Below, in pieces: positions 34,325-57,938 of a stretch of DNA of 64,000 nt; the stretch's first letter is position 1, and each line of letters starts with the position of its first letter. The DNA is from Pseudomonas fluorescens (lineage in GTDB: Bacteria > Pseudomonadota > Gammaproteobacteria > Pseudomonadales > Pseudomonadaceae): positions 2,131,826 to 2,195,825 of the forward strand of contig NZ_OZ024668.1 of assembly GCF_902497775.2 (NCBI RefSeq), read 5' to 3'. A model generated the notes under the pieces. It did no database searches. It saw only the letters and a program-made list of their open reading frames with translations, and had not been told where the DNA came from. Both the position numbers and the translations under genes were made by a program.

Positions 34325-35518
34325 CTAATGGATGCTTGAGGCCAGCTCGAAGATCGGCATGTACATGAGGATCACGATCAGGCCGATCAGCAGGCCGATG
34401 AAGGTCATCAGCAGCGGCTCGAACAGGCGCACGAACCATTCGATCCAGCGGCTGATTTCCTCGTCGTAGAAGTCGGCGCTGCGCTCCATCATCTGCCCGA
34501 GGTTGCCCGACTGTTCGCCGGCGCGCAGCAGGCGCAATGATACGGGCGTCACCAGGTGCCCGGCTTCCAGCGCCGCCGACAGCGACAGGCCTTCCTTGAC
34601 CCGTTCACCGGCCTGTTCCAGGCGCTGCGCACCGGCCGCGCCGAGCAGGCCGCGGGCCATGGCCATGGCGGTGAGGATCGGAATGCCGCCTTGCAGGAGG
34701 ATCCCCAGCGAGCGGTAGAAGCGCGCCAGTTCGTACATCACCAGGCGTTTGTGCAGGGCCGGCAGGCGCTCCAGCTGACGGTTCAGCCAGCGGCGTACCC
34801 GTGGCTCGCGGCGCAAGGCAAACAGCAGCACCATCAGCAGCACAAAGCCGCTGCCCATGGCCATCTGGTTGGCGTGCAGGAACATCCCGGCCTGCATCAG
34901 CCAGCGTGACATCCACGGCAATTCAGTGCCCAGGCCTTCGAAGACCAGGCTGAAACGCGGCACCACGTACCCGAGCAGAAACAGCACCACGCCGCCACCG
35001 ACCAGCAACAGCAGCAACGGGTAGATCGAGGCACTGATGATCTTCTGTCGCACTTCATCCATGCGCTGTCGGTAGGCGACATAGCGGCCGAGGGCATCGC
35101 CCAGGGCGCCGGTCTTTTCGCTCGATTGCACCAGGGCCACGTACAGCGGCGGGAACACGCTGGGCAACTGCCCCAGCGCCTGGGAGAACGACTTGCCCTC
35201 ATACAACAGGCGTACCAGCTGGCCGAGGGTCTTGCGCGCCTGGGGCGCGGTTTCTTTCTCGGCCAGGCTTTCGAGGGCGTCGATCAGCGGCAGGCCGGCG
35301 TTGAGCAGGGTGGTCAGCTCCTGGCTGAACAGCACCAGGTTGAACACCTCGCCACGCCGCCAGCGCAAGCCGGCCAGGCGCTGGCAGCTGCGCACGCTGA
35401 CCACCCGCAAGCCCTGTTGCTCAACCTGCTCGCGGGCCTGGCCGGCATCCTCGGCGTCGACCTGGACCAAGACCACGCCAGCCTTGCCCAATGCTTTGAG
35501 TTCGTAGCGCATGCGCAA
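34325..35518 (-). CDS. gspF: Type II secretion inner-membrane protein GspF
   Basis: A 397-residue protein with two repeated GspF domains and three membrane segments. FSQELTTLLNAGLPLIDALE opens the first repeat and ARFYRSLGILLQGGIPILTAM the second; the C-terminal helix FEPLLMTFIGLLIGLIVILM closes the chain. It is the platform that couples the ATPase to pseudopilus assembly. It forms a minus-strand pair with gspG (9-bp gap). The matching ATPase and secretin genes lie about 13 kb away in another operon. Confidence 0.93.
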   Translation of the reverse strand: MRMRYELKALGKAGVVLVQVDAEDAGQAREQVEQQGLRVVSVRSCQRLAGLRWRRGEVFNLVLFSQELTTLLNAGLPLIDALESLAEKETAPQARKTLGQLVRLLYEGKSFSQALGQLPSVFPPLYVALVQSSEKTGALGDALGRYVAYRQRMDEVRQKIISASIYPLLLLLVGGGVVLFLLGYVVPRFSLVFEGLGTELPWMSRWLMQAGMFLHANQMAMGSGFVLLMVLLFALRREPRVRRWLNRQLERLPALHKRLVMYELARFYRSLGILLQGGIPILTAMAMARGLLGAAGAQRLEQAGERVKEGLSLSAALEAGHLVTPVSLRLLRAGEQSGNLGQMMERSADFYDEEISRWIEWFVRLFEPLLMTFIGLLIGLIVILMYMPIFELASSIH

Positions 35519-35527
35519 CCCCCCCGA

Positions 35528-35950
35528 TTATTGCCAACTGGTGATCTCGGCGTTTTCGCCATCGCCGCCGGGCTGGCCGTCCTTGCCCATCGACAGCAGG
35601 TCGTACTCGCCGTTTTCACCGGGCTGGCGGTAGATGTAGTTACGCCCCCAGGGGTCTTGCGGGACCTTTTTCTGCAGGTACGGCCCCGACCAGCGCACCT
35701 CGTCGCTGGGCGACACCACCAGGGCCTGCAAGCCCTGCTCGGAATTGGGGTAATGCCCCACCTCCAGCCGGTACAGGTCCAGGGCCTTGCCCAGGCCTTC
35801 GATTTGCGCCCGGGCCACCTTGGCCTCCGAGCGCCCCAACTGACTGAAGTACTTGGGTGCAACGATACCGGCCAGCAGCCCCAGTACCACCAGGACCACC
35901 AACAGTTCGAGCAGGGTAAAGCCACGTTGCGCGCGATGGTTGTCGTTCAT
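35528..35950 (-). CDS. gspG: Major pseudopilin GspG
   Basis: The start at 35950 gives 140 residues. The prepilin site is AQRG|FTLLELLVVLVVLG with Glu at +5, followed by GLGKALDLYRLEVGHYPNSE and GLQALV, and the calcium-site region near the end, all typical of GspG. It should form the T2SS pseudopilus after cleavage by a prepilin peptidase encoded elsewhere. Transcription probably starts from the sigma-54-like element at 35987-36002. Confidence 0.93.
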   Translation of the reverse strand: MNDNHRAQRGFTLLELLVVLVVLGLLAGIVAPKYFSQLGRSEAKVARAQIEGLGKALDLYRLEVGHYPNSEQGLQALVVSPSDEVRWSGPYLQKKVPQDPWGRNYIYRQPGENGEYDLLSMGKDGQPGGDGENAEITSWQ

Positions 35951-35986
35951 TGCCAGGCCCTCCACAGGTGCGCTGCGAGGGCTTAT

Positions 35987-36002
35987 GCAAATGCCGTGCG
36001 CG
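35987..36002 (-). promoter_or_regulatory. Sigma-54-like element before gspG-gspF
   Basis: On the minus strand the sequence is CGCGCACGGCATTTGC. GCACG, the four-base gap and TTGC match the -24/-12 consensus with the right spacing, but the first G of the -24 GG is C. The element is 37 bp upstream of the gspG start. A C4-N7-G5 dyad lies about 95 bp further upstream. Confidence 0.4.
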
Positions 36003-36127: not shown

Positions 36128-36718
36128 ATGCGCTGGCTCACTGCGGGAATCCTGGCCTGGCTGGCCACAAGCAATCCGGCTCAGGCCGATGTGTACATCT
36201 CGGTCAAGGCCGATGGCAGCTATGTATTGAGCAACGTCCACCGGCCGGGGCGAACGTACCAGCGGGTCATTAGCGAGACCATGAGCCTGGCCAGCAGCGG
36301 CCCGCAGTTGATCACCGGTATGCCCTACGCCGAAGTGGTGGCGGCTGCCGCCAAAGCCCATGACCTGCCGGCAGCCTTGCTGCATGCGGTGATCCAGGCC
36401 GAATCGCGCTACGACCCCAATGCCCGATCCACCAGTGGCGCGGCGGGCCTGATGCAACTGATGCCTGATACGGCCAAGGAAATGGGCGTGAAAAATGTCC
36501 TCGACCCGGCCGCTAACGTGCAGGGCGGGGCGCGCTACCTCAAGCGCATGCTGACCCTGTTCGACAACGACATCACCCTGGCCGTGGCCGCCTACAACGC
36601 CGGGCCTGACGCGGTGCTGCGCCGGGGCCGGGTAGTGCCGCCGTTCGCTGAAACCCAACGCTATGTGCCCAAGGTGCTGCGCCAGTACCGGCGGCTGCAG
36701 GGGTTAGCCCCCGATTAG
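36128..36718 (+). CDS. Lytic transglycosylase (SLT domain), periplasmic
   Basis: Starting at 36128 (MRWLTAGILAWLATS) the protein has 196 residues with a signal peptide ending near NPAQA. Residues 75-185 are an SLT domain: HAVIQAESRYDPNA with catalytic Glu92, SGAAGLMQLMPDTA and AVAAYNAGPDAV. It cuts peptidoglycan glycan strands. Beside T2SS genes and mnxG it probably opens the wall for the secretion machine. Its stop codon lies inside the first dyad of the mnxG control region. Confidence 0.88.
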   Translation: MRWLTAGILAWLATSNPAQADVYISVKADGSYVLSNVHRPGRTYQRVISETMSLASSGPQLITGMPYAEVVAAAAKAHDLPAALLHAVIQAESRYDPNARSTSGAAGLMQLMPDTAKEMGVKNVLDPAANVQGGARYLKRMLTLFDNDITLAVAAYNAGPDAVLRRGRVVPPFAETQRYVPKVLRQYRRLQGLAPD

Positions 36719-36795: not shown

Positions 36796-36810
36796 TGGCA
36801 TGGGCCTTGC
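36796..36810 (+). promoter_or_regulatory. Sigma-54 promoter of the mnxG operon
   Basis: TGGCATGGGCCTTGC fits TGGCA-N6-TTGC with both invariant dinucleotides (GG and GC) and exact spacing. The start of transcription is expected near 36821, about 30 nt before the mnxG ATG. Mn(II) oxidation in P. putida GB-1 is known to need a sigma-54-dependent regulator (MnxR), so the element fits established knowledge. Confidence 0.75.
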
Positions 36811-36851
36811 TCCAGCCTCTCCAGAGTTCCCCAGCACCACCGAGGCACGCC

Positions 36852-39800
36852 ATGATGACTCCGATCAAAGGCTCAGTCCTGACTTCACTGCTGCTTGCCG
36901 CCGCCAGCCTTGCCTGGCAGCCGCTCAGCCAAGCCGCCGTGCGCTGCGAGCGCAATCTGGTGGCCAACGTGGTGGCGCTCGATCAGCCACTGATGTTCAA
37001 CCGCCTGGGTGCGCAGAATGCCAACGGCATGATGTTCGCCCTGCGCCGCGATGTGGTCGACGAGCACCAGGTGTCGCTGGCCAGTGGCGGCGCTGCGGTG
37101 CCGGGCAAGGTCAGCCTGCGCCCGGACAAACGTCCGCGGCCGATTGTGCTGCGGGTGGCGGCGGGCGACTGCCTGACCGTCAACCTGCAGAACTTGCTGG
37201 CCTATCAGGCCAACCCGAACAAGCACGGCATCGATCACGAAGAAGAGAACGAGGTCGAAGGCGAGGAAAACGAAACTGAAGAGAACGAAGCGGCCGAAGG
37301 CAACGAGCAGGGCGGTGAGCACTTTGTCGCCGACGAGCAGGTCAGCGACCGCCATGTCGGCTTTCAGGTCAACGGCATGCAGGCGGTCAACAGCATCGCC
37401 GACATTGCCGCCAACACCGGGCGCAATGGCAACTTCCTGATCGCCCCCGGCGCCAGCCGCTCCTACACCCTGTATGCCGAACGCGAAGGCGCGTTTGCCG
37501 CCACCAGCCAGGGCGCCACCTTCGGCGGTGAAGGCGCTGCCGGCAACGTTGCCAATGGCCTGTTCGGCCAGGTGGTGGTGGTACCCAAAGGTGGGCGCAC
37601 CTTGCGCAATACCCTGACCGAAGAAGAAATGCGCCTGAGCAGCAGCGGTCGCACCCCCACCGGCCAGCCGATCGTCGACTACCAGGCCCGTTACCCGCAG
37701 CAGGAGCCCTGGATCCGCGAGGGCAAGGCCGGTGCGCCGATCATTGCCATGACCGATGGCAACGAGATCATCTCCAGTGAGTCCGACGCCATTGTCATGG
37801 GCCCCAATGCCGATGGCAGCTTCCCGGCCTCGACCTACCCGCTGGAAAGCATCGGCAAGCGCAACCCGGCGATCCCCAACCGCCTGGAGCCGTTTCGCGA
37901 TTTCGCCGCGCAGTTTACCGATGAAGCCGCCTCGACCCAGGCCTTCCCCGGTTACTGGGCCGACCCGGTGATGGGCCATGTGCTGGAACCGACCCGCGAC
38001 TCGTTCATGATCAACTACGGCTCCGGCGGCATGGGCGCGGAGGTTGTGGCCAACCGCCTGGGCGTGGGGCCGATGCATGACTGCCTGTCGTGCGCCTATG
38101 AAGAGTTCTTTCTGAGTTCGCACACCGTCGGCGACGTGGCGATGCTGGTGGACGTACCGGCCAACGTCGGTCTTGAGAACCTGCGCCCAGGCCAGACCCC
38201 AAGCGCCGAGCAGGTCGGGGTCAAGGCGAGCATGGCCCTGTATCCGGCGGAACCGGCAAACGTCAACCACAGCTACATCGGCGACATGGTCAAGTTTCGC
38301 AACACCCACAACGGCCATGAGCAGCACATCTTCCACCTGCACGGTCACCAGTGGCTGTTCAATCCCAACGACGACAACTCCGACTATGTCGACGCCCAGG
38401 GCATCGGCCCAGGCGTCGGCTACACCTACGAAATCGCCAACGGCGGCTCGGGCAACCGCAACCGCGTCGCGGGCGACGCGATCTACCACTGTCACTTCTA
38501 CCCGCACTTTGCCCAGGGCATGTGGAGCATGTGGCGGGTCCACGATGTATTCGAAGAGGGCACCCGCCTGGAGGTCTCCGGGCAGAGCGAAAACGGCTAT
38601 CACAGCCAGCCGTTCGCCCTGCGCAGCGGCAAACCGGCCGCCGGCGCCCGCGCTTTGCCAGACGGCGAAATCGTCGCCGGTACGCCTATCCCTGCCGTAG
38701 TGCCGCTGCCAGGCAAGGCCATGGCGCCGATGCCGGGCAAGGTCGCGGTGATACCGAAGCTGGCGCAAACCCTGGTTGCAGAGAACGATGACGAAGAGCA
38801 CGAAGAGGGCGATGACGATTCCGGCCATCACGACGCCGCGCCGCGCGCTGTCGGCTCCCTGGCCCTGGTCGATCGCAGCGAAGCCAACCGCAACGCCGAC
38901 GGCAGCCTGAAAAACCCGGGCTTCCCGTTCTGGATCGGCGGCATGGAAAACACCGTCGGCCAGCGTCCGCCAACCCCACCGCTGGACATGCTTGACCCGG
39001 TCAAGGCGCAACAGCTGAAAAACTCCGGCAACGCCCTGTGGGCCAACCTTGACCCAGCCCAGGTCGGCGGCTGGGACGGCGGCCTGCCACGGCATGCCCT
39101 GGATGGCCTGTCTGCCGGTGGCGAAGCGGTGGTGACCACCACCGCGCTGGACTTTACCAAGGCGATCACCAAGGCCAAGGCGGTGTTTCTGCCCGAGGAG
39201 GGCACCGACGTCGAACAGGCGGCGATGAGCTTCCATTCCAAGCTGGAACACCCAAGCTATGCCGTGTTGCCCGGCATGCAGACCGTGGCGCGCAACTTTC
39301 GCACCAACGGCGCTGCGCCCACTGCCGGTGCGCCCTACTACGAGCCGTGCATGGACGACCGCGCCAAGCGTCTGACCCAGTTCTCCGGCGCCGGTGAGTT
39401 CAACAGCGGCGAACGCCTGGACGGCATGAGCTTCACCGGTAGCTCGACCTTCACCGCCGACCGCCCGCGCATCTACAAGGGCGCCAACATCCAGTTCGAT
39501 GCGGTGTACAACAAAGTCGGCTATCACTTCCCGCAAGCGCGGATCATCAGCCTCTGGGAAGACGCCTGGTCGGTGATCAACAAGCAGCGCCCACCGGAGC
39601 CGCTGGTGATGCGCATGAACACCTTCGACTGCGTGATGTACCAGCACACCAACCTGATCCCCTCGTACTACGAGATGGACGACTACCAGGTGCGCACGCC
39701 GACCGACGTCATCGGCCAGCATATCCACCTGCCGAAATGGGACCTGACTGCCGCCGACGGCTCGGCCAACGGCTGGAACTACGAGGACGGCATTCTTTCC

Positions 39801-42728
39801 CCTGGCACCGTGGTCGAGCGCATCCATGCCATTCGCGAGTTCAACCAGTGCCACAGCGGCGACCCGCGTGAAAGCACGGCCGAGTGCCCGGTGGCCAAGG
39901 CGCATCCGTTCTTCGGCCGCTACGGGCGTGCCGACTGGCTGGGCGCGCGCACGGCCATGCAGCGCTGGTTCGTCGACCCGGTGGTCAACGTGCACAACGT
40001 CGACCGTGGCCTGGGCACCATCTTTACCCACGATCACCTCGGCCCATCGACCCACCAGCAACTGGGCCTGTATGCAACCGTCTTGGCGGAACCGGCTGGC
40101 TCCACCTGGTACCACGCCGAAACCGGCGAACTGCTGTACAACAGCGCCCTGCGCGAAGACGGCGGGCCGACCTCGTGGCAGGCGGTGGTGAAAACCGGCG
40201 ACCTCGATGGCGACGGGCGCAACGACAGCTACCGTGAGTTCTTCCTCGAATACAGCGACTTCCAGCATGCCTATGAGGCGGGCGTCTACGTCGGTGCCGG
40301 CCCGGACGGCATCCCCAATGCCCAGGCCTATCCGGCCAGTGCCGACAGCTTCCGCTACGCCATCAACCCGCCGGTACGGCAGAAGGCCTCGAACCTGCTC
40401 GAATCGGTGGTCGAGTCGCGCGGCGGGCTCAATCCGGGCTGCCCGAGCCGGCCGTGCCCACAGGCGATCTCGGTGGATGACCCGGGGATGTTCGTCGTCA
40501 ACTACCGCAACGAGCCACTGGCCCTGCGCGTCTACGACCCGAACAAGGTAGCGCCGGACGGCAAGCGCGGCATGCAGGCCGACGGCCTGGGCGGTGACCT
40601 GGCCTACGCCATGCAAAGCCGTACCGACCGCGCCATCCCGGCGATGAACCTGTCGCCTGCCGCGATTACCTCGGCAGTCGGCCCGACCGGTGGCACCACA
40701 GTGTTCCCGCCGCACATCAACGTGGCCGGCGCAGAGCCGGGTGATCCGTTCACCCCGATGCTGCGCACGTACTCCGGTGACAACGTACGCCTGCGCATGC
40801 ATGCCGGCGGCCATGAAGAGGAACACAACGTGACCCTGCACGGCGTCAAATGGCTGCAGAACGGCTCGGGCTTCGGCAACAGCTCGAACTCCGGCTGGAA
40901 GGCCTCGCAGATGGTGGGCATTTCCGAGCAACTGGGCTTCATGGCGCCGGTGTCGATGATCTCCAGTTCGTCCGCGCCCAATGGCGACTACCTGTACTCG
41001 CTGGACGCCGCCCACGAAGGCTACTGGAACGGCATCTGGGGGGTGATGCGCAACTACACCAACAGCCGCAACGACCTGTTTGCCCTGCCCAACAACAGCT
41101 TGCCGATGGCGGCGCGCAATACTGTGGCGTTTGACGGCATCTGCCCGCGTTTTACCGCCAACAGCAACGGCATCGGCACCCGGCCAACGGTGCAGCGCAG
41201 CTATGAAATCGTCGCTGCCCTGGCCAACGACATCCTCGGCAACGCGTTGGGCGTCAGCATCAACGACCCGGCCGGGGTCGGCCAGCATGTCGGCGGCCCG
41301 CTCAAGGCCAACGGCGGCACCCTGGTGTACAACAGCCGGCGCACCAGCATCGCGCAAGTGACGGTAACCGACCCCGAAGATGGCGAGACCTTCACCATCG
41401 GCGGCCACAGCGGGCCACTGCACGACCCGACCGCGATCCTCTATGTGCGCAAGGCGGACCTCGACCCGAGCACCGGCAAGCTCAAGCCCGGTGTACCGAT
41501 CGAGCCGCTGGTGCTGCGCGCCGCTGCCGGTGAGTGCCTGAAGGTGACCCTGGAGAACCGCCTGCCGCTGGTCATGCCGGACCTGCCCAGCACCGCCGTG
41601 ATGCAGAACGTGGTCAAGCGCGACCGCAACGGCAGCGAGGGCTCCACTGCCTTCAACAACAACCTGATGCGGCCTTCCAGCCATGTCGGCCTGCATACCC
41701 AACTGCTGGCTTACGACATCACCAAGTCGGACGGCGCCAACGTCGGCCAGAACCCGGTGCAGACCGTACCGCCACGCGCTGGCAACAGCGGCGCCTACCC
41801 GAACAAGGTCTACCAGTACTACGCCGGCCACCTGGAGCGTGAAGGCAAGCCGGTGCTGCAGATGGGCCGCGCGGTGGACAACATCAACACCACGTCCATC
41901 GAGTTCGGCGGCCTGAACATCACCCCGGCCGATGTCATCAAGCAGGGGCAGAAAGGCCTGATCGGTGCCATGAGCATCCTGCCGCTGGGTGCCACCTGGA
42001 CCGAAGACAGCGCAAGCCGGGCCTCGGCCACGGTGCAGGTGCCGGGGCAAACGGCCTACCGCGACTTCGCCACGTTGTGGCAGCGCTCGCTGAACATGCG
42101 CTGGGCCGATGGCCGGCCGGTGGAAGGCATTGCCACTGAAGGCAACGGCGTGCCGGGTGATCCGAAGGACAACTCGAACATGGCCATCAACTACAAGACC
42201 GAGCCGCTGTGGTTGCGCTTCGGCCTGGCCCCGGATGCGCCGTTCGGCCATGCCGATGGCAATGGCTGGGCCGATGTGCCCAACGCCCACATGGCTTACA
42301 GCAACGCCCTGGTCGGTGGCGATCCACAAACCCCGGTGCTCTGGGCCAAGCCTGGCCAGCCGCTGCGCAACCATGTGCTGATGCCCACCGGAGGCAGCCG
42401 TGGCATCACCTACCAGCTCGATGGCCACCTGTGGCCGCTGCACAACTACCAGGCGGAGAAGTCCGACACGGGTGGTTACCCGATGTACCAGCCGGGTATC
42501 GGTTCGGTGCGCTTTGGCTACAACCCGCAGGCCATGTACATCGGCGCCCAGGAGAGCGTGCTGCCGGCGGCGCACTTCAGCTTCATGCTGCCCAGCGCCG
42601 GGGGCAGCAACGCGGTGCCGGGTGACTACCTGTTCCGCGACTACGCCGCCTACGGCAACGTGTCTGGCTTGTGGGGGATCTTGCGGGTGACCAACGAAAC
42701 ACCACCGGCCACGCCGCCAGCACAGTGA
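36852..42728 (+). CDS. mnxG: MnxG-type giant multicopper oxidase (Mn(II) oxidase)
   Basis: From ATG 36852, preceded by GAGG, the protein has 1958 residues with a signal peptide (SLLLAAASLAWQPLSQAA). Copper-site clusters are His495/His497/His499 (HIFHLHGHQW), the canonical HCH-x3-H-x4-M T1/T3 motif at His546-Met557 (HCHFYPHFAQGM), His1060/His1062 (THDHLGPSTHQ), HEEEHNVTLHG near 1320-1333 and LDGHLWPLHNYQ near 1856. Acidic inserts lie near 130-160 and 645-665, and a calcium-loop-like DLDGDGRND at 1117-1125. Length and motifs match P. putida MnxG, which oxidises Mn(II) to Mn oxide at the cell surface. A longer start at 36807 would overlap the promoter. Confidence 0.9.
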   Translation: MMTPIKGSVLTSLLLAAASLAWQPLSQAAVRCERNLVANVVALDQPLMFNRLGAQNANGMMFALRRDVVDEHQVSLASGGAAVPGKVSLRPDKRPRPIVLRVAAGDCLTVNLQNLLAYQANPNKHGIDHEEENEVEGEENETEENEAAEGNEQGGEHFVADEQVSDRHVGFQVNGMQAVNSIADIAANTGRNGNFLIAPGASRSYTLYAEREGAFAATSQGATFGGEGAAGNVANGLFGQVVVVPKGGRTLRNTLTEEEMRLSSSGRTPTGQPIVDYQARYPQQEPWIREGKAGAPIIAMTDGNEIISSESDAIVMGPNADGSFPASTYPLESIGKRNPAIPNRLEPFRDFAAQFTDEAASTQAFPGYWADPVMGHVLEPTRDSFMINYGSGGMGAEVVANRLGVGPMHDCLSCAYEEFFLSSHTVGDVAMLVDVPANVGLENLRPGQTPSAEQVGVKASMALYPAEPANVNHSYIGDMVKFRNTHNGHEQHIFHLHGHQWLFNPNDDNSDYVDAQGIGPGVGYTYEIANGGSGNRNRVAGDAIYHCHFYPHFAQGMWSMWRVHDVFEEGTRLEVSGQSENGYHSQPFALRSGKPAAGARALPDGEIVAGTPIPAVVPLPGKAMAPMPGKVAVIPKLAQTLVAENDDEEHEEGDDDSGHHDAAPRAVGSLALVDRSEANRNADGSLKNPGFPFWIGGMENTVGQRPPTPPLDMLDPVKAQQLKNSGNALWANLDPAQVGGWDGGLPRHALDGLSAGGEAVVTTTALDFTKAITKAKAVFLPEEGTDVEQAAMSFHSKLEHPSYAVLPGMQTVARNFRTNGAAPTAGAPYYEPCMDDRAKRLTQFSGAGEFNSGERLDGMSFTGSSTFTADRPRIYKGANIQFDAVYNKVGYHFPQARIISLWEDAWSVINKQRPPEPLVMRMNTFDCVMYQHTNLIPSYYEMDDYQVRTPTDVIGQHIHLPKWDLTAADGSANGWNYEDGILSPGTVVERIHAIREFNQCHSGDPRESTAECPVAKAHPFFGRYGRADWLGARTAMQRWFVDPVVNVHNVDRGLGTIFTHDHLGPSTHQQLGLYATVLAEPAGSTWYHAETGELLYNSALREDGGPTSWQAVVKTGDLDGDGRNDSYREFFLEYSDFQHAYEAGVYVGAGPDGIPNAQAYPASADSFRYAINPPVRQKASNLLESVVESRGGLNPGCPSRPCPQAISVDDPGMFVVNYRNEPLALRVYDPNKVAPDGKRGMQADGLGGDLAYAMQSRTDRAIPAMNLSPAAITSAVGPTGGTTVFPPHINVAGAEPGDPFTPMLRTYSGDNVRLRMHAGGHEEEHNVTLHGVKWLQNGSGFGNSSNSGWKASQMVGISEQLGFMAPVSMISSSSAPNGDYLYSLDAAHEGYWNGIWGVMRNYTNSRNDLFALPNNSLPMAARNTVAFDGICPRFTANSNGIGTRPTVQRSYEIVAALANDILGNALGVSINDPAGVGQHVGGPLKANGGTLVYNSRRTSIAQVTVTDPEDGETFTIGGHSGPLHDPTAILYVRKADLDPSTGKLKPGVPIEPLVLRAAAGECLKVTLENRLPLVMPDLPSTAVMQNVVKRDRNGSEGSTAFNNNLMRPSSHVGLHTQLLAYDITKSDGANVGQNPVQTVPPRAGNSGAYPNKVYQYYAGHLEREGKPVLQMGRAVDNINTTSIEFGGLNITPADVIKQGQKGLIGAMSILPLGATWTEDSASRASATVQVPGQTAYRDFATLWQRSLNMRWADGRPVEGIATEGNGVPGDPKDNSNMAINYKTEPLWLRFGLAPDAPFGHADGNGWADVPNAHMAYSNALVGGDPQTPVLWAKPGQPLRNHVLMPTGGSRGITYQLDGHLWPLHNYQAEKSDTGGYPMYQPGIGSVRFGYNPQAMYIGAQESVLPAAHFSFMLPSAGGSNAVPGDYLFRDYAAYGNVSGLWGILRVTNETPPATPPAQ

Positions 42729-48419: not shown

Positions 48420-48956
48420 TTGGTGAACAGAGTATTGGTAGTCGATGACGAACAGACCCTTGCCGGCAATATCCAGGATTACCTGGTTCTGCAAGGCCTG
48501 GACGTCCATGTTGCCCACGACGGAGCCAGTGCCATCGGCGCAGCCGAACGCACCCGGCCCGAAGTGGTAGTGCTGGATTATCGCTTGCCCGATATGGAGG
48601 GGTTTCAGGTTCTGGAGACTGTGCGTCAACAAGGTACGGCCTGTCATTTCGTGCTGATCACCGCCCACCCGACCGCCGAGGTCCGTGAGCGGGCCAGCCA
48701 ACTGGGTGTCAGCCATATCCTGTTCAAGCCTTTTCCCCTGGCGGAACTGGCCCGCGCAGTCCTCGACCTGATGGGCATCAAGCGAGAAAACCGGCGCGCA
48801 GCCGACAAGGACACCGGGTTCGTCGAACGACGCCAGAGCAGGAGTGAGAGTTTCCCCCTGCAGTTGTTCGACGGTAGCTGGGTCCTGGCCGATCGCCGAC
48901 GTAATGGTGCACGGCCGCCGGGGCCCGACGACGACCAACTGCTCACCGGGGAGTAA
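48420..48956 (+). CDS. Stand-alone response-regulator receiver protein
   Basis: The start is TTG at 48420 or GTG at 48423; both fit the AGGGAG at 48408-48413. The receiver domain fills residues 1-118 with the acidic pair VVDDEQ, phospho-acceptor Asp53 (VVLDYRLPD, counted from TTG), ITAHPT and the Lys in LFKPFP. The remaining 60 residues (for example RRQSRSESFPLQLFDGSWVLADRRR) show no recognisable DNA-binding or enzyme domain. It heads the operon encoding the secretion ATPase, so it may control assembly by protein contact. No histidine kinase gene is adjacent. Confidence 0.85.
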   Translation: MVNRVLVVDDEQTLAGNIQDYLVLQGLDVHVAHDGASAIGAAERTRPEVVVLDYRLPDMEGFQVLETVRQQGTACHFVLITAHPTAEVRERASQLGVSHILFKPFPLAELARAVLDLMGIKRENRRAADKDTGFVERRQSRSESFPLQLFDGSWVLADRRRNGARPPGPDDDQLLTGE

Positions 48957-51489: not shown

Positions 51490-52032
51490 ATGCGCCGTCT
51501 GATGCTGGATTTGCAGCCCGCCCGCACCGGTCTGCCCGCCTGGGCGCTGCTGGCTGGCGGAGTCAGCCTGCTGCTCGGCGCCGTGTTGCTGCAGCATGGC
51601 CTCGATCAACAACAAGCCGAGCTTGAACAGCAACTCGAACAGCTCGACCGGCAGCTGGGTAAACGGCCTCAGGCCGGGCAGCCGCTCAATGCCGCGCAAA
51701 GCCGCGAGCAGGCCGAGAAACTGGCGCAGATGCGCAGCGTTTCGCAGCAGCTGCAACGGCCGTGGGAGCGCCTGTTCGGCATGCTCGAAGCACTGCCGCA
51801 GGATGACGTCGCCTTGCTCACCCTGACCCCCGACGCCCGCAAGGGCCAGCTGCGTATCAGCGCTGAGGCCCGCGATCTGGAAGCCATGCTGGCTTTCCAC
51901 AAACGCCTGGAAGCCAGTGACGAGCTGCGCGATGTGTCGCTGCTCAACCACGAAATCATCGCCACGCAGGCCGAGCATCCGGTGCAGTTCAATCTGTCGG
52001 CCACCTGGGAGAACGGTAATGCGCATCCCTAG
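51490..52032 (+). CDS. PilN-like inner-membrane assembly protein
   Basis: A 180-residue bitopic protein: short cytoplasmic N-terminus (MRRLMLDLQPAR), one membrane helix (about 17-37), a coiled coil (about 38-90) and a small ferredoxin-like periplasmic domain. This is the layout of PilN and of the C-terminal half of GspL. It follows the PilM-like gene directly (stop at 51488) and overlaps the PilO-like gene by 14 bp. Confidence 0.6.
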   Translation: MRRLMLDLQPARTGLPAWALLAGGVSLLLGAVLLQHGLDQQQAELEQQLEQLDRQLGKRPQAGQPLNAAQSREQAEKLAQMRSVSQQLQRPWERLFGMLEALPQDDVALLTLTPDARKGQLRISAEARDLEAMLAFHKRLEASDELRDVSLLNHEIIATQAEHPVQFNLSATWENGNAHP

Positions 52033-52567
52033 CCTGATCCTGCATGAACGCGCCCGCCAGTTCGGCGTGGTGGGCCTGGCCGGTGCCGGGCTGTTGGCCC
52101 TGGCACTGCTGTACGGCGCAACCGCACTGTTGGCGCAATGGCAACAGCTGCAACATCTCGAGCAGCAACGCGACCAGGCCCAGGCGCAGGTCGCACAGTT
52201 CAAGCAGGGCACGCTGAAACTGCCCCAGGTGCCACAGCACGAGCTGGAAGACTTCCACAAACAACTGCCGGCCCAGCCCCAGGCCACCGTGGCCATCGAC
52301 CGCATCTACGCCTTGGCCAAGGCCCAGCAGATCACCCTGGCCCGCGGCGAGTACGCCCTGGGGGTCGATCCCAAGACTCAGCTTGCGCGTTACCAGATCC
52401 TCCTGCCGGTGCGCGGCAGCTACCCGCAGATCCGCCGCTACGTGCATGCCTTGCTCGGCCAGCTGCCGGCGCTGGTGCTGGAAGACATCGACCTGCAACG
52501 CAAGAAGATCGGCGACCGCGAGCTGACCGGGCGCATCCGTATGACCCTTTATCTGTCGAGGTCATGA
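52019..52567 (+). CDS. PilO/GspM-like inner-membrane assembly protein
   Basis: A 182-residue bitopic protein with a membrane helix near residues 16-38, a coiled coil (LEQQRDQAQAQVAQFKQG) and a ferredoxin-like C-terminal domain containing YQILLPVRGSYPQIRRYVHA, a typical PilO/GspM segment. It should pair with the PilN-like protein to align the pseudopilus. It overlaps both neighbours. Confidence 0.65.
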   Translation: MRIPSLILHERARQFGVVGLAGAGLLALALLYGATALLAQWQQLQHLEQQRDQAQAQVAQFKQGTLKLPQVPQHELEDFHKQLPAQPQATVAIDRIYALAKAQQITLARGEYALGVDPKTQLARYQILLPVRGSYPQIRRYVHALLGQLPALVLEDIDLQRKKIGDRELTGRIRMTLYLSRS

Positions 52568-53067
52568 TGAACACTCAACGCAGCCTGGCCTGGCTGGCTT
52601 TTCTCGGCACCGCCGCAGTGCTGGCCTGGGGCCCGGGGTACTTCTTCGACGAGGCGGCGCAAGACGGCGAGGCCGCTGTGGCGGTCGCCAGCAAGGCTTC
52701 TGCACACCTCCCTGCGGTGGCGCAAAAGGCCGCCAGAGCCGCCGCCCTGCAGCCCCGCGACTTGTTCCCGAGCAAGAGCTGGAAGCCTGCGGTGCAAGTC
52801 ACCACCGTGACCGAGCAGCCCGTGCTCATTGCCCCGGTAGCCCTGGCGCCGGTCGCGCCGGCGTTGCCGTTCCAGTTCGTCGGCCGCCTGGATGATCGCG
52901 ACGATCAGCAGGTGTTCCTGCAAAGCGGCGAAAAACTCTACGTCGTGCGCCGCGGCGACGTGATCGATGACACCTACCGGATCGAGCAGATCTCCACCAC
53001 GGAGCTGAGCCTGGTCTACCTGCCATTGCACCTGTCCCAGACCTTGTCTGTAGGGAGCGCACCATGA
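52564..53067 (+). CDS. PilP/GspC-like inner-membrane protein
   Basis: A 167-residue protein with an N-terminal membrane helix (LAWLAFLGTAAVLAWGPGYF), a flexible Ala/Pro-rich linker (about 45-105) and a small beta domain (FQFVGRLDDRDDQQVFLQSG, then EKLYVVRRGDVIDDTYRIEQI) resembling the PilP/GspC homology region that contacts the secretin. It lies immediately before the secretin gene, as gspC or pilP usually does. It overlaps the PilO-like gene by ATGA. Confidence 0.65.
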   Translation: MMNTQRSLAWLAFLGTAAVLAWGPGYFFDEAAQDGEAAVAVASKASAHLPAVAQKAARAAALQPRDLFPSKSWKPAVQVTTVTEQPVLIAPVALAPVAPALPFQFVGRLDDRDDQQVFLQSGEKLYVVRRGDVIDDTYRIEQISTTELSLVYLPLHLSQTLSVGSAP

Positions 53068-54893
53068 ATTCGCCAAGGCTCAGCAACAAAGTGCCGTACC
53101 TGATGCTTGCCCTGTGTGTCGCCCTGGCCGGTTGCGGCACCTCGGGCGTGCGCAAGGACGCCCAGGCCCTGATCGGTGAAGGGCAGTACGAGGCCGGGAT
53201 CGCCCAGCTCGAAGCAGCACTCAAGGAGCACCCGCGGGACACCGAACTGAACATCGCCTTGATCCAGGGCCGGCGCCAGGCGGTGGAAGCGCTGCTGACC
53301 CAGGCCGACAGCGACCGCAGCCGCCACGACTTCGGCGGTGCGCGCAGCGGCTACGGCCGCGTGCTGACCCTGGAACCGAACAACCGCCGCGCCCTGGACG
53401 CGGTGCGCCAGATCGAGCAGATGCGCAACCTCAGCGAGCGCATCGCCCTGGGCCAGGCGGCGCTGCGTGCCGGCGACCTGTTCGGCGCCGAGCGGCACAT
53501 GCGTGAAGTGCTCCTGCTCGACCCGCAGAACGAAGGCGGCCTGGCCCTGCGCAAGGACATCGAGCTGGTGCAAAGCCGCACCGCACAGCCCAACCCGCAA
53601 CTGCGCACCAAGCTCGAACGGCCGGTGACCCTGGAGTTTCGCGACGCCAACCTGAAGACCATCTTCGAGGTGCTGTCGCAGGTGGCGGGGCTGAACTTCA
53701 TCTTCGACAAGGACCTGCGCCCGGACATGAAGGCGACCATTTTCGTGCGCGACGTGCGCATCGAAGATGCCGTGGCCCTGCTGCTGGAGCAGAACCAGTT
53801 GCACCAGAAGGTGGTGAACGACAACACCCTGCTGATCTATCCGGACTCACCGCAGAAGACCAAGGACTATCAGGAGCTGGTGATGCGCACCTTCTACCTG
53901 ACCAGCATCGACTCCAACACCGCGTTGAACATGGTCAAGACCATGCTCAAGACCCGCGACGTGTTCGTCGACGAGCGCCTCAACACCCTGACCATGCGCG
54001 ACACCGCCGATGCCGTGCGCATGGCCGAAAAACTCTTGCAGTCCCAGGATCAGTCCAACCCGGAAGTGGTGCTGGAGGTGGAGGTGATGGAGGTGGCCCG
54101 TTCGCGCATTCTGGAGCTCGGCCTGCAGTGGCCCAACACCTTCGGCCTGCTCAATGCCGACGGCAACCCGGTGGGTACCCTCGACCAGCTACGCGGCATC
54201 AACTCCTCGCGCATCAGCATCGCCCCGGCGCCACAAGCCAAGATCAACGCTCAGGACAACGACATCAACACCCTGGCCAGCCCGGTGATCCGCGTCAGCA
54301 ACCGTGAGCAGGCGCGCATCCACATCGGCCAGCGGGTGCCGATCATCAGCGCCACCTCGGTGCCCTCGACCCAGGGCCCGGTGATCACTGAAAGCGTTAC
54401 CTACCTGGATGTCGGCCTCAAGCTTGAAGTCACCCCGGTGGTGCACCTGAACAACGAAGTGGCCATCAAGGTGGCCCTGGAAGTCAGCAACGCCAAGCCG
54501 CTGGAACCGACACGCCAGGGCACCATTCCGGTTCAGGTCGACACCCGCAACGCCCAGACCAGCCTGCGCCTGCACGACGGCGAAACCCAGGTGCTGGCGG
54601 GCCTGGTGCGCAACGACTCGGGCGCCAGCGGCAACAAGATCCCCGGCCTTGGTGACATTCCCGGCCTGGGCCGGCTGTTTGGCAGCAACCGCAACGACAA
54701 CAGCCAGTCGGAGCTGGTGCTGTCGATCACCCCGCGGATCATTCGCAACCTGCCGTACCAGAGCCCGTCGGACATGGAGTTTGCCACCGGCACCGAAACC
54801 AGCATGCAGATCCGCAATATCAACCTTAACCGCAGCGTCGAGGCGGAGGACGAACAGCCCATTGCTGCGGTGCCTACTGCGGCGAGGCCCTGA
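53064..54893 (+). CDS. Secretin lipoprotein with N-terminal TPR region (GspD/PilQ/MshL-like)
   Basis: A 609-residue outer-membrane secretin. The lipobox is VALAGC (Cys24). Residues about 30-165 form TPR-like repeats (QYEAGIAQLEAALKEHPRD), an N-domain follows (VTLEFRDANLKTIFEVLSQV), then a second one. The C-terminal secretin core includes VLEVEVMEVARSRILELGL, VGLKLEVTPVVH and the signature GNKIPGLGDIPGLGRLF. It should form the outer-membrane gate. The N-terminal TPRs are unlike classical GspD; being a lipoprotein it may need no separate pilotin. Confidence 0.88.
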   Translation: MNSPRLSNKVPYLMLALCVALAGCGTSGVRKDAQALIGEGQYEAGIAQLEAALKEHPRDTELNIALIQGRRQAVEALLTQADSDRSRHDFGGARSGYGRVLTLEPNNRRALDAVRQIEQMRNLSERIALGQAALRAGDLFGAERHMREVLLLDPQNEGGLALRKDIELVQSRTAQPNPQLRTKLERPVTLEFRDANLKTIFEVLSQVAGLNFIFDKDLRPDMKATIFVRDVRIEDAVALLLEQNQLHQKVVNDNTLLIYPDSPQKTKDYQELVMRTFYLTSIDSNTALNMVKTMLKTRDVFVDERLNTLTMRDTADAVRMAEKLLQSQDQSNPEVVLEVEVMEVARSRILELGLQWPNTFGLLNADGNPVGTLDQLRGINSSRISIAPAPQAKINAQDNDINTLASPVIRVSNREQARIHIGQRVPIISATSVPSTQGPVITESVTYLDVGLKLEVTPVVHLNNEVAIKVALEVSNAKPLEPTRQGTIPVQVDTRNAQTSLRLHDGETQVLAGLVRNDSGASGNKIPGLGDIPGLGRLFGSNRNDNSQSELVLSITPRIIRNLPYQSPSDMEFATGTETSMQIRNINLNRSVEAEDEQPIAAVPTAARP

Positions 54894-54896: not shown

Positions 54897-55373
54897 ATGA
54901 AACGGCCGATGGCAGGTTTCAGCCTGATTGAAGTGATGCTGACCCTGGCGCTGCTTGGACTGCTGGCCTCGATTGCCGCACCGCTGACTGAAACCCTGGT
55001 GCGGCGCAGCAAGGAGCAGGAGTTGCGCACGGCGCTGTACCAGTTGCGCGATGCCATCGACGCCTACAAGCGCGCCTTCGACGCCGGCTATATCGAGAAG
55101 TCCCTCGATGCCAGCGGCTATCCGCCGAACCTGCAGGTCCTGGTCGATGGCGTGCGCGATGTGCGCAGTGCCAAGGGCGCCAGGTTCTACTTCCTGCGGC
55201 GCATTCCCCAGGACCCGCTGCTGGCGGCGCGCAAGGACGCAGAGCAGGGCGGTTGGGGCCTGCGTGCCTACGACAGTTCGGCGCAGAACCCGCGCGACGG
55301 CGAGGATGTTTTCGATGTGTATTCCCGGGCCCGTGGCAAGGGCCTTAACGGCATCGCCTACGGGCAATGGTGA
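54897..55373 (+). CDS. Pseudopilin, GspG-like, first of three
   Basis: A 158-residue prepilin-like protein. The cleavage site is PMAG|FSLIEVMLTLALLG with Glu at +5. The body has YQLRDAIDAYKRAFDAG and GYPPNLQVLVDGV, and ends with PQDPLL and YDVYSRARG-like segments seen in GspG/PulG pseudopilins. It lies 3 bp after the secretin gene. It is a second GspG-like subunit besides the one at 35528-35950. Confidence 0.85.
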   Translation: MKRPMAGFSLIEVMLTLALLGLLASIAAPLTETLVRRSKEQELRTALYQLRDAIDAYKRAFDAGYIEKSLDASGYPPNLQVLVDGVRDVRSAKGARFYFLRRIPQDPLLAARKDAEQGGWGLRAYDSSAQNPRDGEDVFDVYSRARGKGLNGIAYGQW

Positions 55374-55378
55374 GCAGT

Positions 55379-55753
55379 ATGAAACGCAGCCAGGGCTTTA
55401 CCTTGATCGAGTTGCTGGTGGTGATGGCGATCATCGCCACCCTGATGACCATCGCCATGCCGCGCTACTTCAACAGCCTCGAGACCTCGCGCGAGGCCAC
55501 CCTGCGCCAGAGCCTGGCGGTGATGCGCGAGGCGCTGGACCACTTTTATGGCGACACCGGCCGCTACCCCGAGTCGCTTGAGCAATTGGTGGAGCAGCGT
55601 TACCTGCGCGGCGCCCCGCTGGACCCGATCACCGAGCGCCGCGACCTCTGGCAGGTGGTGGCGCCGCCTGAAGGCGTCGCCGGTGCCGTCGCCGACATCA
55701 AGAGCGGTTCAACCGGGAGGGCGCGTGATGGCAGCCTTTATGCCGAGTGGTAA
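55379..55753 (+). CDS. Pseudopilin, second of three
   Basis: Preferred start 55379 (MKRSQGFTLIELLV) with GGTGAG just upstream; an ATG at 55367 would overlap the previous stop. The 124 residues contain the prepilin site SQG|FTLIELLVVMAIIA with Glu +5, then MREALDHFYGDTGRYPESLEQLVEQ and PLDPITERRDLWQ, again GspG/PulG-like. Overlaps the third pseudopilin gene by 26 bp. Confidence 0.85.
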   Translation: MKRSQGFTLIELLVVMAIIATLMTIAMPRYFNSLETSREATLRQSLAVMREALDHFYGDTGRYPESLEQLVEQRYLRGAPLDPITERRDLWQVVAPPEGVAGAVADIKSGSTGRARDGSLYAEW

Positions 55754-56258
55754 TTCCGGACAGGCAGGCTTCACCTACTTGGGCGTGCTTCTGCTGATCG
55801 CCGTCACCGGCATGGCCCTGGCGGCCACCGGCACGCTGTGGTCGACCGTCGCCCAGCGCGAGCGCGAACGCGAGCTGCTGTGGGTCGGCGGCCAGTATGC
55901 CCAGGCCCTGCGCAGCTACTTTCGTAGCTCGCCGGGCCTGGCCCAGTATCCGCAGAGCCTTGATGAACTGCTCGAAGATGCCCGCTATCCCAACCCGAAA
56001 CGTCACCTGCGCAAGCTGTACCCGGACCCGATTACCGGCAGCGACGACTGGGGCCTGCTGCGCTCGATCGACGGGCGCATCACTGGCGTCTACAGCCGCT
56101 GCGAGGCGATGCCGTTAAAGCGCACCGGCTTTGCCGCGCAGTGGTCGGAGTTCGAGGGCCTGGAGCACTACAGCGACTGGCAGTTCGTCGCCGAAAAGGC
56201 CTTCGCCCAGACCGCTGCCGGGGCGCGCAAGGGCCTGGCCCAGGGAGCCGGACAATGA
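55728..56258 (+). CDS. Pseudopilin-like protein lacking Glu+5, third of three
   Basis: From ATG 55728, with GGGAGG upstream, the protein has 176 residues. The N-terminus GQAG|FTYLGVLLLIAVTGMAL looks like a prepilin leader, but the residue at +5 is Gly instead of Glu. In T2SS only the tip pseudopilin GspK lacks that Glu, so this may be the tip subunit; it is shorter than GspK and has RYPNPKRHLRKLYPDPITGSDDWG like other PulG-type proteins. It overlaps csgE by ATGA. Confidence 0.75.
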   Translation: MAAFMPSGNSGQAGFTYLGVLLLIAVTGMALAATGTLWSTVAQRERERELLWVGGQYAQALRSYFRSSPGLAQYPQSLDELLEDARYPNPKRHLRKLYPDPITGSDDWGLLRSIDGRITGVYSRCEAMPLKRTGFAAQWSEFEGLEHYSDWQFVAEKAFAQTAAGARKGLAQGAGQ

Positions 56259-56647
56259 ACCGCCTCAGTGCATTGGCCCTGGCCCTGGTGTTGCTGGCGG
56301 GCACCGCCCGGGGCGGCGCCGAGGACGAGATGATGGGCTTTATCGTCGACAACACCATCTCGCACATCGGCCACGACTTCTATTACAGCTTCGCCGAGCG
56401 GCTGCGTGCCACCAGTCGCCTGGACTTCAACCTGGTGGTACGCGAACGACCCGACCCGCGTTGGGGCAGCCTGGTGACGGTCGAGTACGAACAACGCGTG
56501 CTGTACCGGCGCTTTCTGCCACCCAACACAACTGAGCTGAAGGACGCCGCCTACGAGGCAGCGGACCTGGTCAAGGCGCAGATCATCCAGCGCAAGCTGC
56601 AGATGCTGCTGCAGGACACCACTGATCTGGAGAGGGACGAGCTATGA
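56255..56647 (+). CDS. csgE: Curli assembly protein CsgE
   Basis: A 130-residue periplasmic protein with signal peptide ending near TARGG. The motifs SHIGHDFYYSFAERL, RERPDPRWGSLVTV and C-terminal DTTDLERDEL align by eye with E. coli CsgE (IGHDFY, RWGS, LAHDEF). CsgE caps the CsgG channel and brings substrates to it. Here the gene overlaps a pseudopilin gene on one side and csgF on the other, so it is part of the secretion operon and not of a curli operon. Confidence 0.93.
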   Translation: MNRLSALALALVLLAGTARGGAEDEMMGFIVDNTISHIGHDFYYSFAERLRATSRLDFNLVVRERPDPRWGSLVTVEYEQRVLYRRFLPPNTTELKDAAYEAADLVKAQIIQRKLQMLLQDTTDLERDEL

Positions 56648-57063
56648 ACAACAACAAAACCTGCAGCCTGGCCTCCCTGGTACTGCTGGCGGCCCTCGCC
56701 AGTGCGGCCAGCGCCACGGAACTGGTCTACACCCCGGTCAACCCGGCGTTTGGCGGAAACCCGCTGAACGGCACCTGGCTGCTCAACAATGCCCAGGCGC
56801 AGAACGATCATGAAGACCCGGCCATCAAGGACCGCGCCTCGGCCTTTGCCAGCACCTCGACGCTGGAGCGCTTCACCAGCCAGCTGGAGTCGCGCCTGCT
56901 CTCGCAACTGCTGACCAACATCAACAACGGCAATACCGGCAGCCTGCAGACCGACGCCTTCATCATCAACGTCATCGACGACTCAGGGGCCCTGAGCATT
57001 CAGGTGACCGACCGGGTTACCGGGGAAATCTCGGAAATTCAGGTCAACGGCCTGAACCCTTGA
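56644..57063 (+). CDS. csgF: Curli assembly protein CsgF
   Basis: A 139-residue exported protein. After the signal peptide, ELVYTPVNPAFGGNPLNGTW and LLNNAQAQN is the highly conserved CsgF N-terminus that inserts into the CsgG pore, and the end SIQVTDRVTGEISEIQVNGL also matches. CsgF anchors the curli nucleator at the surface in E. coli. No nucleator CsgB is present in the window. Confidence 0.93.
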   Translation: MNNNKTCSLASLVLLAALASAASATELVYTPVNPAFGGNPLNGTWLLNNAQAQNDHEDPAIKDRASAFASTSTLERFTSQLESRLLSQLLTNINNGNTGSLQTDAFIINVIDDSGALSIQVTDRVTGEISEIQVNGLNP

Positions 57064-57092
57064 AGGGCACAGGACAACGGGGAGAAACAGCC

Positions 57093-57938
57093 ATGAAACA
57101 ATTTCTGAGCACACTGCTGATCCTGGCCGCCTTGCAAGGCTGCAGCCTGCGCGAGCCGATGTCGGCTGAACAGGACAGCGAGAGCCCGACCCTGACGCCG
57201 CGCGCCTCGACCTACTACGACCTGCTCAACATGCCGCGGCCCAAAGGCCGGCTGATGGCGGTGGTGTATGGTTTTCGCGACCAGACCGGGCAATACAAGC
57301 CGACCCCGGCCAGCTCGTTTTCCACCAGCGTCACCCAGGGCGCGGCGAGCATGCTGATGGATGCGCTGTCGGCCAGTGGCTGGTTCGTGGTGCTTGAGCG
57401 CGAAGGGCTGCAGAACCTGCTGACCGAACGCAAGATCATCCGCGCCTCGCAGAAAAAACCTGACACCCCGCTGAACATCCAGGGTGAACTGCCGCCGCTG
57501 CAGGCCGCCAACCTGATGCTCGAAGGCGGCATCATCGCCTACGACACCAACGTGCGCAGCGGCGGCGAGGGCGCGCGCTACCTGGGCATCGACCTGTCGC
57601 GCGAGTACCGGGTCGACCAGGTTTCGGTCAACCTGCGGGCGGTGGACGTGCGCAGCGGCCAGGTGCTGGCCAACGTCATGACCAGCAAGACCATCTACTC
57701 GGTCGGGCGCAGCGCCGGGGTGTTCAAGTTCATTGAGTTCAAGAAGCTGCTGGAAGCCGAGGTCGGCTACACCACCAACGAGCCGGCGCAGCTGTGCGTA
57801 TTGTCGGCGATCGAAGCAGCGGTGGGGCACTTGCTGGCCCAGGGCATTGAACGGCGCCTGTGGCAGGTGGCAGGAGATGGCGCCGGGGACAAGGCGGTGC
57901 TGGATAAATACCTGAGCCAGTATCAGAGCCCTGAGTGA
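57093..57938 (+). CDS. csgG: Curli secretion channel lipoprotein CsgG
   Basis: The start at 57093 (MKQFLSTLLILAALQGC) follows GGGGAGA and gives a 281-residue lipoprotein (lipobox LQGC, Cys17). Matches to CsgG include VYGFRDQTGQYKP, SFSTSVTQGAASMLMDAL, WFVVLEREGLQNLLTERKII and RAVDVRSGQVLANVMTSKTIYS. CsgG forms the nonameric outer-membrane channel that exports unfolded curli subunits. As last gene of the T2SS-like operon without csgA or csgB its substrate is unknown. Confidence 0.95.
   Translation: MKQFLSTLLILAALQGCSLREPMSAEQDSESPTLTPRASTYYDLLNMPRPKGRLMAVVYGFRDQTGQYKPTPASSFSTSVTQGAASMLMDALSASGWFVVLEREGLQNLLTERKIIRASQKKPDTPLNIQGELPPLQAANLMLEGGIIAYDTNVRSGGEGARYLGIDLSREYRVDQVSVNLRAVDVRSGQVLANVMTSKTIYSVGRSAGVFKFIEFKKLLEAEVGYTTNEPAQLCVLSAIEAAVGHLLAQGIERRLWQVAGDGAGDKAVLDKYLSQYQSPE

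Follow-up and report, generated by a model that had tools for sequence, protein, structure and literature searches.

The stretch of Pseudomonas fluorescens DNA analysed here, a window of 64,000 nucleotides (C1:2131826-2195825 of a 5.97 Mb genome on a single contig), carries the operon of the manganese oxidase gene mnxG, the genes of an atypical type II secretion system (T2SS) and the curli secretion genes csgEFG. Our data on gene content, co-inheritance, synteny and conserved sigma-54 sites define a manganese (Mn)-oxidation/curli island. Its T2SS is not new: it is Xcm, known from Pseudomonas putida GB-1/KT2440. What seems new, within the library searched, is that curli subunits and their exporter, a T2SS, Mn oxidases and a probable Mn regulator make up one co-inherited unit with matching sigma-54 sites. 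Judging from sequence, the island probably works as a single MnxR/sigma-54 regulon, with MnxG exported by Xcm, the CsgA/CsgB curli subunits exported by CsgEFG, and MnxR acting at the promoters.

Co-inheritance is most evident within the genus. Among 149 Pseudomonas genomes including the source, where CsgG was counted only above 130 bits and family matches near 90 bits or lower were dropped, mnxG is present in 47 and a close xcmX in exactly the same 47 (at E<=0.001 xcmX is found in 56 genomes: these 47, eight with a distant copy and one marginal). CsgG passes the threshold in 49 of the 149 genomes, 46 of them within the mnxG set (the copy of G127 is in two pieces), and curlin repeats occur in 50, including all 47 with mnxG, G137 having a remnant only. 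The spacing is also kept. It is 1.3-1.8 kb between xcmX and csgG in 46 of 46 genomes, all of which also have mnxG, and 13.6-19.7 kb between xcmX and mnxG in 43 of the 44 genomes where it is measurable, with 180 kb in the remaining one. The distance from curlin genes to csgG, measurable in 34 of 46 genomes, is at most 10 kb in 25 of the 34 among the matches listed.

A scan of contigs for relatives, of which the best 80 of 173 were kept, places csgEFG after xcmX in 77 of 80 loci and in 59 of the 61 with more than 3 kb of downstream sequence; ten of the 80 were searched for MnxG and eight gave a match. Outside both genus and order, the island lies on one contig of Oceanisphaera litoralis (Aeromonadales), in the order part of mnxS2, mnxR, xcmS-xcmT1, slt, mnxG to surA, receiver gene, gspE to xcmX and csgEFG, followed by two csgA-like genes, csgB and two large probable surface proteins. 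The 77 of 80 loci and this second order rule out a chance neighbourhood in one genome. In an order-wide search of 341 genomes XcmX was found only in the source genome, and the eight other genus members listed there lacked it. The closest named xcmX matches are from Pseudomonas wadenswilerensis (94%) and P. rubra (90%), very near records possibly being omitted. A variant was met in Pseudomonas jinjuensis JCM 21621 (L193/L194, G856:C22:376959-394963), where three tandem mnxG genes precede one beta-propeller gene and the usual xcm-csgEFG operon.

In the window the gspF/gspG pair, a transglycosylase gene, the six-gene mnxG operon (to 48190) and the 12-gene T2SS-csgEFG operon (48420-57938) are contiguous. 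The original prediction, made from these letters, had listed the same genes, and all were found in their places, with operon sizes of 6 and 12 and the outer coordinates correct. Within the 12-gene operon the genes from secretin through csgG overlap or lie 3 bp apart, and the gap between the receiver gene and gspE is 53 bp. Identities come from Pfam and NCBIfam profile matches; xcmX and the PilM-like and PilP-like genes gave no Pfam match and are named from position and relatives. The features are as follows, in window positions.

34325..35518, minus strand: xcmS, gspF-like inner-membrane platform protein (Pfam T2SSF 189.9 bits; NCBIfam GspF 288.9, below 424)
35528..35950, minus strand: xcmT1, gspG-like major pseudopilin with prepilin motif (T2SSG 142 bits; NCBIfam GspG 191.5, above 88.85), start placed at the MNDNHRAQRGFTLLE methionine
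36128..36718, plus strand: lytic transglycosylase, slt (Pfam SLT 97.6 bits)
36796..36811, plus strand: sigma-54 -24/-12 site of the mnxG operon, TGGCATGGGCCTTGCT (at least 10 of 12 positions at 15 of 15 loci)
36852..42728, plus strand: mnxG, Mn-oxidizing multicopper oxidase (NCBIfam NF041487 3901.8 bits, above 3100)
42743..44722, plus strand: beta-propeller protein of the mnxG operon (start inferred)
44719..45366, plus strand: SCO1/SenC protein 1
45363..46007, plus strand: SCO1/SenC protein 2
46011..47546, plus strand: cytochrome c and periplasmic binding protein (Peripla_BP_6)
47543..48190, plus strand: SurA-N-like protein
48335..48350, plus strand: sigma-54 -24/-12 site of the xcm-csg operon, TGGCACGAAGCATGCG (at least 9 of 12 positions at 15 of 15 loci)
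48420..48956, plus strand: receiver-domain protein, gene 1 of the xcm-csg operon (Response_reg 82.6 bits)
49010..50710, plus strand: gspE-like assembly ATPase, xcpR counterpart (T2SSE 414.5 bits; NCBIfam GspE 485.8 and PilB 480.7, both below the equivalog cut-offs)
50661..51488, plus strand: PilM-like protein, start uncertain (no Pfam match; same place in relatives)
51490..52032, plus strand: PilN-like protein (weak, 22.3 bits with a cut-off of 22.8)
52019..52567, plus strand: PilO-like protein (PilO 27.5 bits)
52564..53067, plus strand: PilP-like protein (no Pfam match; same place in relatives)
53064..54893, plus strand: secretin with STN domain, TPR N-terminus and lipobox-like LAGC stretch (Pfam Secretin 139.9 bits)
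54897..55373, plus strand: xcmT2 pseudopilin (N_methyl)
55367..55753, plus strand: xcmT3 pseudopilin (N_methyl)
55740..56258, plus strand: xcmX, atypical pseudopilin-like, GFTYLG start (no Pfam match)
56255..56647, plus strand: csgE, overlapping the xcmX stop (Pfam CsgE 127.9 bits; NCBIfam 165.7, above 137)
56644..57063, plus strand: csgF (Pfam CsgF 117.7 bits; NCBIfam 107.7, below 171)
57060..57938, plus strand: csgG, start TTG 57060 or ATG 57093 (Pfam CsgG 271 bits; NCBIfam 295.3, below 505)

Besides scoring above the NF041487 equivalog cut-off, the oxidase matches the solved MnxG structure 9bxa (E=1.6e-71). Its N-terminus reads like a Sec signal peptide. Further afield, csgG is bordered by DUF1272, tetrapyrrole methylase and CbtA genes (57944-60210, minus strand), apparently unrelated, and two successive TENA/THI-4/PQQC-family genes (32765-34090, minus strand) adjoin gspF.

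In the study of 2003 that described Xcm, xcmT1 and xcmS reportedly form a separate pair, and xcmX is said to lie beside xcmT2, xcmT3 and three csg homologues. Set against this layout, the locus has the same arrangement, an xcmT1-xcmS pair apart from an xcmT2/xcmT3/xcmX/csg cluster. In the WCS358 locus (L134) gspE, secretin, xcmT2, xcmX and csgEFG follow in the same order, and mnxG lies about 19 kb upstream on the same contig. Judged through this WCS358 locus, the machine is the same atypical T2SS as Xcm of GB-1 and KT2440, with no essential difference seen; added here to the picture of Xcm are the ties to curli subunits, to MnxS/R and to shared sigma-54 sites. The cluster of GB-1 and KT2440 was used as bait in PMC4509608, whose passage on it also reports the cluster in WCS358, citing de Vrind et al. 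The original prediction held that no described system joins CsgEFG to a T2SS; this fails, since the T2SS is the published Xcm, with xcm followed by csgEFG in WCS358. Its background statement, that a Gsp gene is linked to Mn-oxidase export in P. putida, is borne out by the title of de Vrind et al. 2003, according to which GB-1 needs a Gsp-related pathway to secrete the Mn-oxidizing factor. The larger claim of a dedicated export system for MnxG stands in part: the T2SS and mnxG are co-inherited and the GB-1 pathway is in print, while the curli channel as an added route for MnxG does not hold.

By its profile matches the Xcm machine departs from the canonical T2SS, with inner-membrane proteins that resemble PilN and PilO. 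At the positions of GspC, GspL and GspM, PilO is over its cut-off, PilN and T2SSM_b are just under, and the PilM and PilP positions have no Pfam match; GspG scores as a major pseudopilin. The Pul/Oxp T2SS of Geobacteraceae, required for secretion of the laccase-family multicopper oxidase OmpB (PMC3543383), is by its description a comparable case; the passage on it in that paper mentions no curli genes.

The three Csg proteins are those of curli secretion. All are over their Pfam cut-offs, CsgG aligns with the solved curli CsgG 3x2r over residues 18-287 of 292 (E=8.6e-82) and CsgF with 6l7a (E=4.2e-27), the NPxFGGNPxNG stretch being kept. All three proteins of the E. coli type VIII system are thus matched, with the difference that here they are encoded behind a T2SS. 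The CsgG constriction, which we take to be the KPYPASNFST stretch, reads KPTPASSFST; the CsgG of L030, away from xcm, also differs there. Curli subunits need the CsgG channel, as established for E. coli, and the source genome has a single CsgG-family match, the one in the xcm operon, so that CsgEFG most likely serve curli. The subunits are present: nine curlin-repeat matches lie at C1:2105221-2106805 (two proteins in L034), in genes at about C1:2105086-2107018, 82 kb from csgG. Separate csgEFG and csgAB clusters in P. putida are described in a passage of PMC3056050.

Upstream of the curlin genes are two probable surface-protein genes, of 754 aa (Big_9/cadherin-like) and up to 491 aa (no Pfam match), and divergent to these are genes for two sensor kinases and a sigma-54 activator. 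By domains, order and position, and the published layout, the latter are probably MnxS1, MnxS2 and MnxR. In five of eight loci (L057-L061) csgA/csgB are followed within 18 kb by the probable mnxS1, an SCO gene and the probable mnxS2 and mnxR; in L056, L035 and L038 csgA/csgB are present and the probable regulators are absent from the stretch examined. L058 has a multicopper oxidase gene directly before the SCO gene, matching the published mcoA-SCO pair. That pair lies between mnxS1 and mnxS2 in strains DSV-1 and MS-1 according to the portion of PMC11409713 that treats mnxG, mcoA and mnxS1/S2/R of GB-1, DSV-1 and MS-1, where the six-gene mnxG operon is the same as here and sigma-54 dependence is reported, in line with the sites found here. 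The IMG numbers of DSV-1 (mnxG ...2721, mnxS1 ...2698, 23 apart) fit one island; the main text of that paper gave no match for curli, csg, xcm, gsp or secretion. As to the surface proteins, L034 (11036-14772) and its homologues encode beside csgBA two adjacent proteins with a VDPGPY-type N-terminus, Big_9 being found in one (L034, L058, L029), and the smaller of them was matched in 27 of 27 csgAB-bearing loci searched.

Sigma-54 sites of one type precede three of these operons. We scanned with GG and GC fixed and 12 scored positions, and took expectations from shuffles, which ignore shared descent. Before mnxG a site scoring at least 10 occurs in 15 of 15 loci (0.24 expected). Before the receiver gene all 15 loci have at least 9 and eight have at least 10 (0.37 expected at 10); this site lies 61-84 bp upstream in every locus and in L054 is tied with one at 550 bp. 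For the csgBA operon the scan was anchored on the conserved methionine of the first surface-protein gene in 27 loci, four of which were skipped because the upstream sequence was too short: at least 9 positions match in 18 of 23 (1.0 expected) and at least 10 in 12 (0.24 expected), 14 of the 18 sites lying 53-59 bp upstream, with L057, L168, L169, L174 and L179 as misses. Among 170 control upstreams 14 reach 9 and three reach 10, mnxG itself being one of the three, and none of the csgE upstreams of six csgEFG loci away from xcm reaches 9. It should be noted that the pattern is no commoner in the raw window than chance (50 found, 52.8 expected, with no excess in whole-stretch counts), so the case for sigma-54 is one of conservation and position only. 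An exact consensus match, TGGCACTGGGGTTGCT, also occurs at window positions 22142-22157 on the plus strand. Nothing clear came from a sigma-70 scan (1 site, 1.0 expected) or a terminator scan (9, with 6.3 expected and sd 2.3).

The conserved sites agree with published regulation. Published work predicts IHF and sigma-54 sites in the promoters of mnxG and mcoA, with Mn raising reporter activity 16- and 13-fold, and the section of PMC11409713 on MS-1 reports that rpoN::Tn5 abolishes Mn oxidation, which is restored by the GB-1 rpoN gene. The sigma-54-like promoters proposed by the original prediction hold before mnxG and the 12-gene operon; for the gspG/gspF pair a shared promoter type is not shown, because the xcmT1 upstream has no site (0 of 10 at 10 or more, 1 of 10 at 9 or more). 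The shared dyads proposed along with them look weak: GGGGAAT occurs four times in the window with 7.7 expected by composition (two of the four before mnxG), and a GGGGAAT..CCCC element precedes the probable mnxS1 in two of seven loci.

Taken together, these features can be read as follows. MnxG would cross the inner membrane via Sec and receive its copper in the periplasm, where the SCO1/SenC proteins may assist; the Xcm pseudopilus (XcmT1-3 and XcmX) would then push it through the secretin, across the outer membrane. CsgEFG would be the ordinary curli channel for CsgA and CsgB, and Mn(II), acting through MnxR and sigma-54, would turn on oxidase, exporter and curli. A more far-reaching form of this reading, which we hold tentatively and at somewhat less than an even chance, is that Mn(II) via MnxS1/S2-MnxR/sigma-54 jointly induces MnxG/McoA, the T2SS, CsgEFG, curli and the surface proteins, and that the amyloid scaffolds the Mn oxide made by MnxG, making this a mineralized-biofilm island. 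A use of curli in Mn-oxide deposition is our guess. In the library searched, joint control of curli and Mn oxidation appears unreported, and no paper there pairs mnxG with csgG; a search combining curli with Mn oxidation led to PMC3056050 and an unrelated flavonoid review.

Several observations weigh against a single Xcm-MnxG-curli regulon. The 47 co-occurrences are not independent, because genomes of one genus are related, and the same shared descent is ignored by the shuffled expectations for the sigma-54 sites. GspE, GspF and GspD fall under the NCBIfam equivalog cut-offs of the canonical T2SS (485.8 against 630.25, 288.9 against 424 and 155.7 against 351.35). No site reaching 10 precedes xcmT1 (0 of 10), csgB itself has no site reaching 10 in the 360-400 bp upstream (0 of 9, with 1 of 9 at 9 or more), and the csgBA site precedes surface-protein genes that are assumed to share the csgB operon. 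No xcm or csg insertion is among the examined rows of the published MS-1 Tn5 screen. In L156 and L160 xcm is full length in the stretch, and neither genome gave an mnxG match, L160 having an mnxG fragment, with the other genes of the mnxG operon being truncated or missing; Xcm is thus not always tied to MnxG and can outlast mnxG. In G471, a genome outside Pseudomonas, a frame of about 2054 residues resembles MnxG and is accompanied by genes for a beta-propeller, an SCO and a binding protein, the group lying about 700 kb from xcm.

Another explanation is that CsgEFG export ordinary curli and sit in the island through shared biofilm timing or chance linkage, curli having no role in Mn oxidation. 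We consider this unlikely, although a number of genomes speak for it. Curli without mnxG or xcmX occur in G020, G068 and G115, in a different operon with CsgE/CsgF/CsgG 33-50% identical, and G042 and G060 each carry a further csgEFG set next to curlin-like genes, the stretch of 20 kb showing no xcm. Natural losses point the same way. In G137 mnxG is open (a 1950-residue frame) and the xcm genes are kept, yet csgE matches over residues 1-69 only, csgF was not found in the stretch nor CsgG in the genome, and next comes a curlin remnant of 64 residues. In Pseudomonas sp. A-1 the genes lie on two contigs, L192 bearing mnxG, xcmS-T1 and gspE and L164 bearing secretin-xcmT2-T3-X, and the 10 kb that follow xcmX contain no csgEFG. 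Nor were csgEFG seen after xcmX in L156, a metagenome-assembled genome, or in L160, which has only 1.7 kb of downstream sequence. From these four cases it can be argued that CsgEFG are not essential to Xcm or MnxG. Against an unrelated curli system stand the linkage kept in Aeromonadales, the source-genome curli operon beside the probable mnxS1/S2/R despite the 82 kb to csgG, and the shared sigma-54 sites, which are absent before csgE in all six loci away from xcm. In G087 a second mnxG likewise borders a curli operon, xcm being absent from the stretch, so that curli and mnxG adjoin independently of Xcm; in this locus (L030/L031, G087:C4:277256-287404) mnxG and a beta-propeller gene lie beside a divergent csgEF-csgA-csgG-csgB operon.

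It appears improbable that Xcm mainly exports other cargo, such as McoA, the beta-propeller or the Big_9 surface proteins. The reading is favoured by the xcm genes that stay full length, in the stretches examined, in L156 and L160, where mnxG has been lost or could not be found, and by relatives of Xcm with another neighbour. Eight genus genomes have a distant xcmX (35-40%) and neither mnxG nor a CsgG match above 130 bits; six were fetched (G067 and G004 left out), and all have xcmT2-T3-X, xcmT1, xcmS and gspE with no csgEFG match. In these six loci (L024-L027, L041, L043) a gene resembling lytic polysaccharide monooxygenases (LPMO) lies between xcmX and xcmT1, with domains LPMO_10, GbpA_2 and CBM5/12 in L024, and its product is a candidate cargo, by position and domains, of a paralogous Xcm-type T2SS in csg-less Pseudomonas. 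Cargo would thus differ between Xcm relatives, as the LPMO gene in these csg-less operons indicates. MnxG was reportedly not the enzyme under study in 2003, which we also count for other cargo. Against it, the 47 genus genomes with mnxG are the very ones with a close xcmX, the two genes mostly (43 of 44) lying 14-20 kb apart, and the title of de Vrind et al. 2003 names the GB-1 pathway after the Mn-oxidizing factor that it secretes.

A class survey reaching outside Pseudomonas found xcmX in 10 of 369 genomes, source genome included. In the remaining nine no CsgG match lies beside xcm, two having a weaker CsgG-family match on another contig; G471 has no CsgG match, and MnxG was matched in none of the other eight. 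Ten loci were fetched from the nine genomes, most of them with xcmT1, xcmS and gspE adjoining the other xcm genes, so that the split of xcm around the mnxG operon looks derived. Overall, csgEFG lie beside none of the fifteen Xcm-type systems examined outside the island. Three loci (L090, L095, L096) form another Xcm-like subtype, in which xcmT1 stands between xcmT3 and xcmX, and frames of more than 1000 residues lie nearby in L090 and L096.

The original prediction had gone further and seen in CsgEFG a dedicated part of MnxG export, a further channel or gate in the outer membrane that cooperates with the T2SS; the embedding of csgEFG in the T2SS operon, where start and stop codons overlap, and their place after xcmX in 77 of the best 80 of 173 loci would suit it, but we hold it very improbable, given curlin repeats in all 47 island genomes with matching promoters (the subunit operon having its own sigma-54 site), a sole CsgG in the xcm operon that aligns with curli CsgG over nearly its whole length, a T2SS that already owns a secretin, mnxG and xcm kept in G137 and Pseudomonas sp. 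A-1 with csgEFG broken or not beside xcm, and Xcm-type systems lacking csg, among them 0 of 9 non-Pseudomonas XcmX genomes with a CsgG match near xcm.

We therefore return to one MnxR/sigma-54 regulon with separate routes for MnxG and curli as the probable reading. Why bacteria oxidize manganese and how the enzyme gets outside are open questions in Mn geochemistry, and the locus joins the oxidase, its likely exporter, the curli amyloid and a probable Mn-responsive regulator as a co-inherited unit. Xcm also emerges as one of a wider set of T2SSs, the rest of which neighbour different candidate cargo, for example a copper LPMO; this suggests that the cargo of a T2SS can be read from its gene neighbourhood. 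If the mineralized-biofilm reading is true, the island would be self-contained and transferable, and curli in these bacteria would be an Mn-induced organelle and not a general adhesin.

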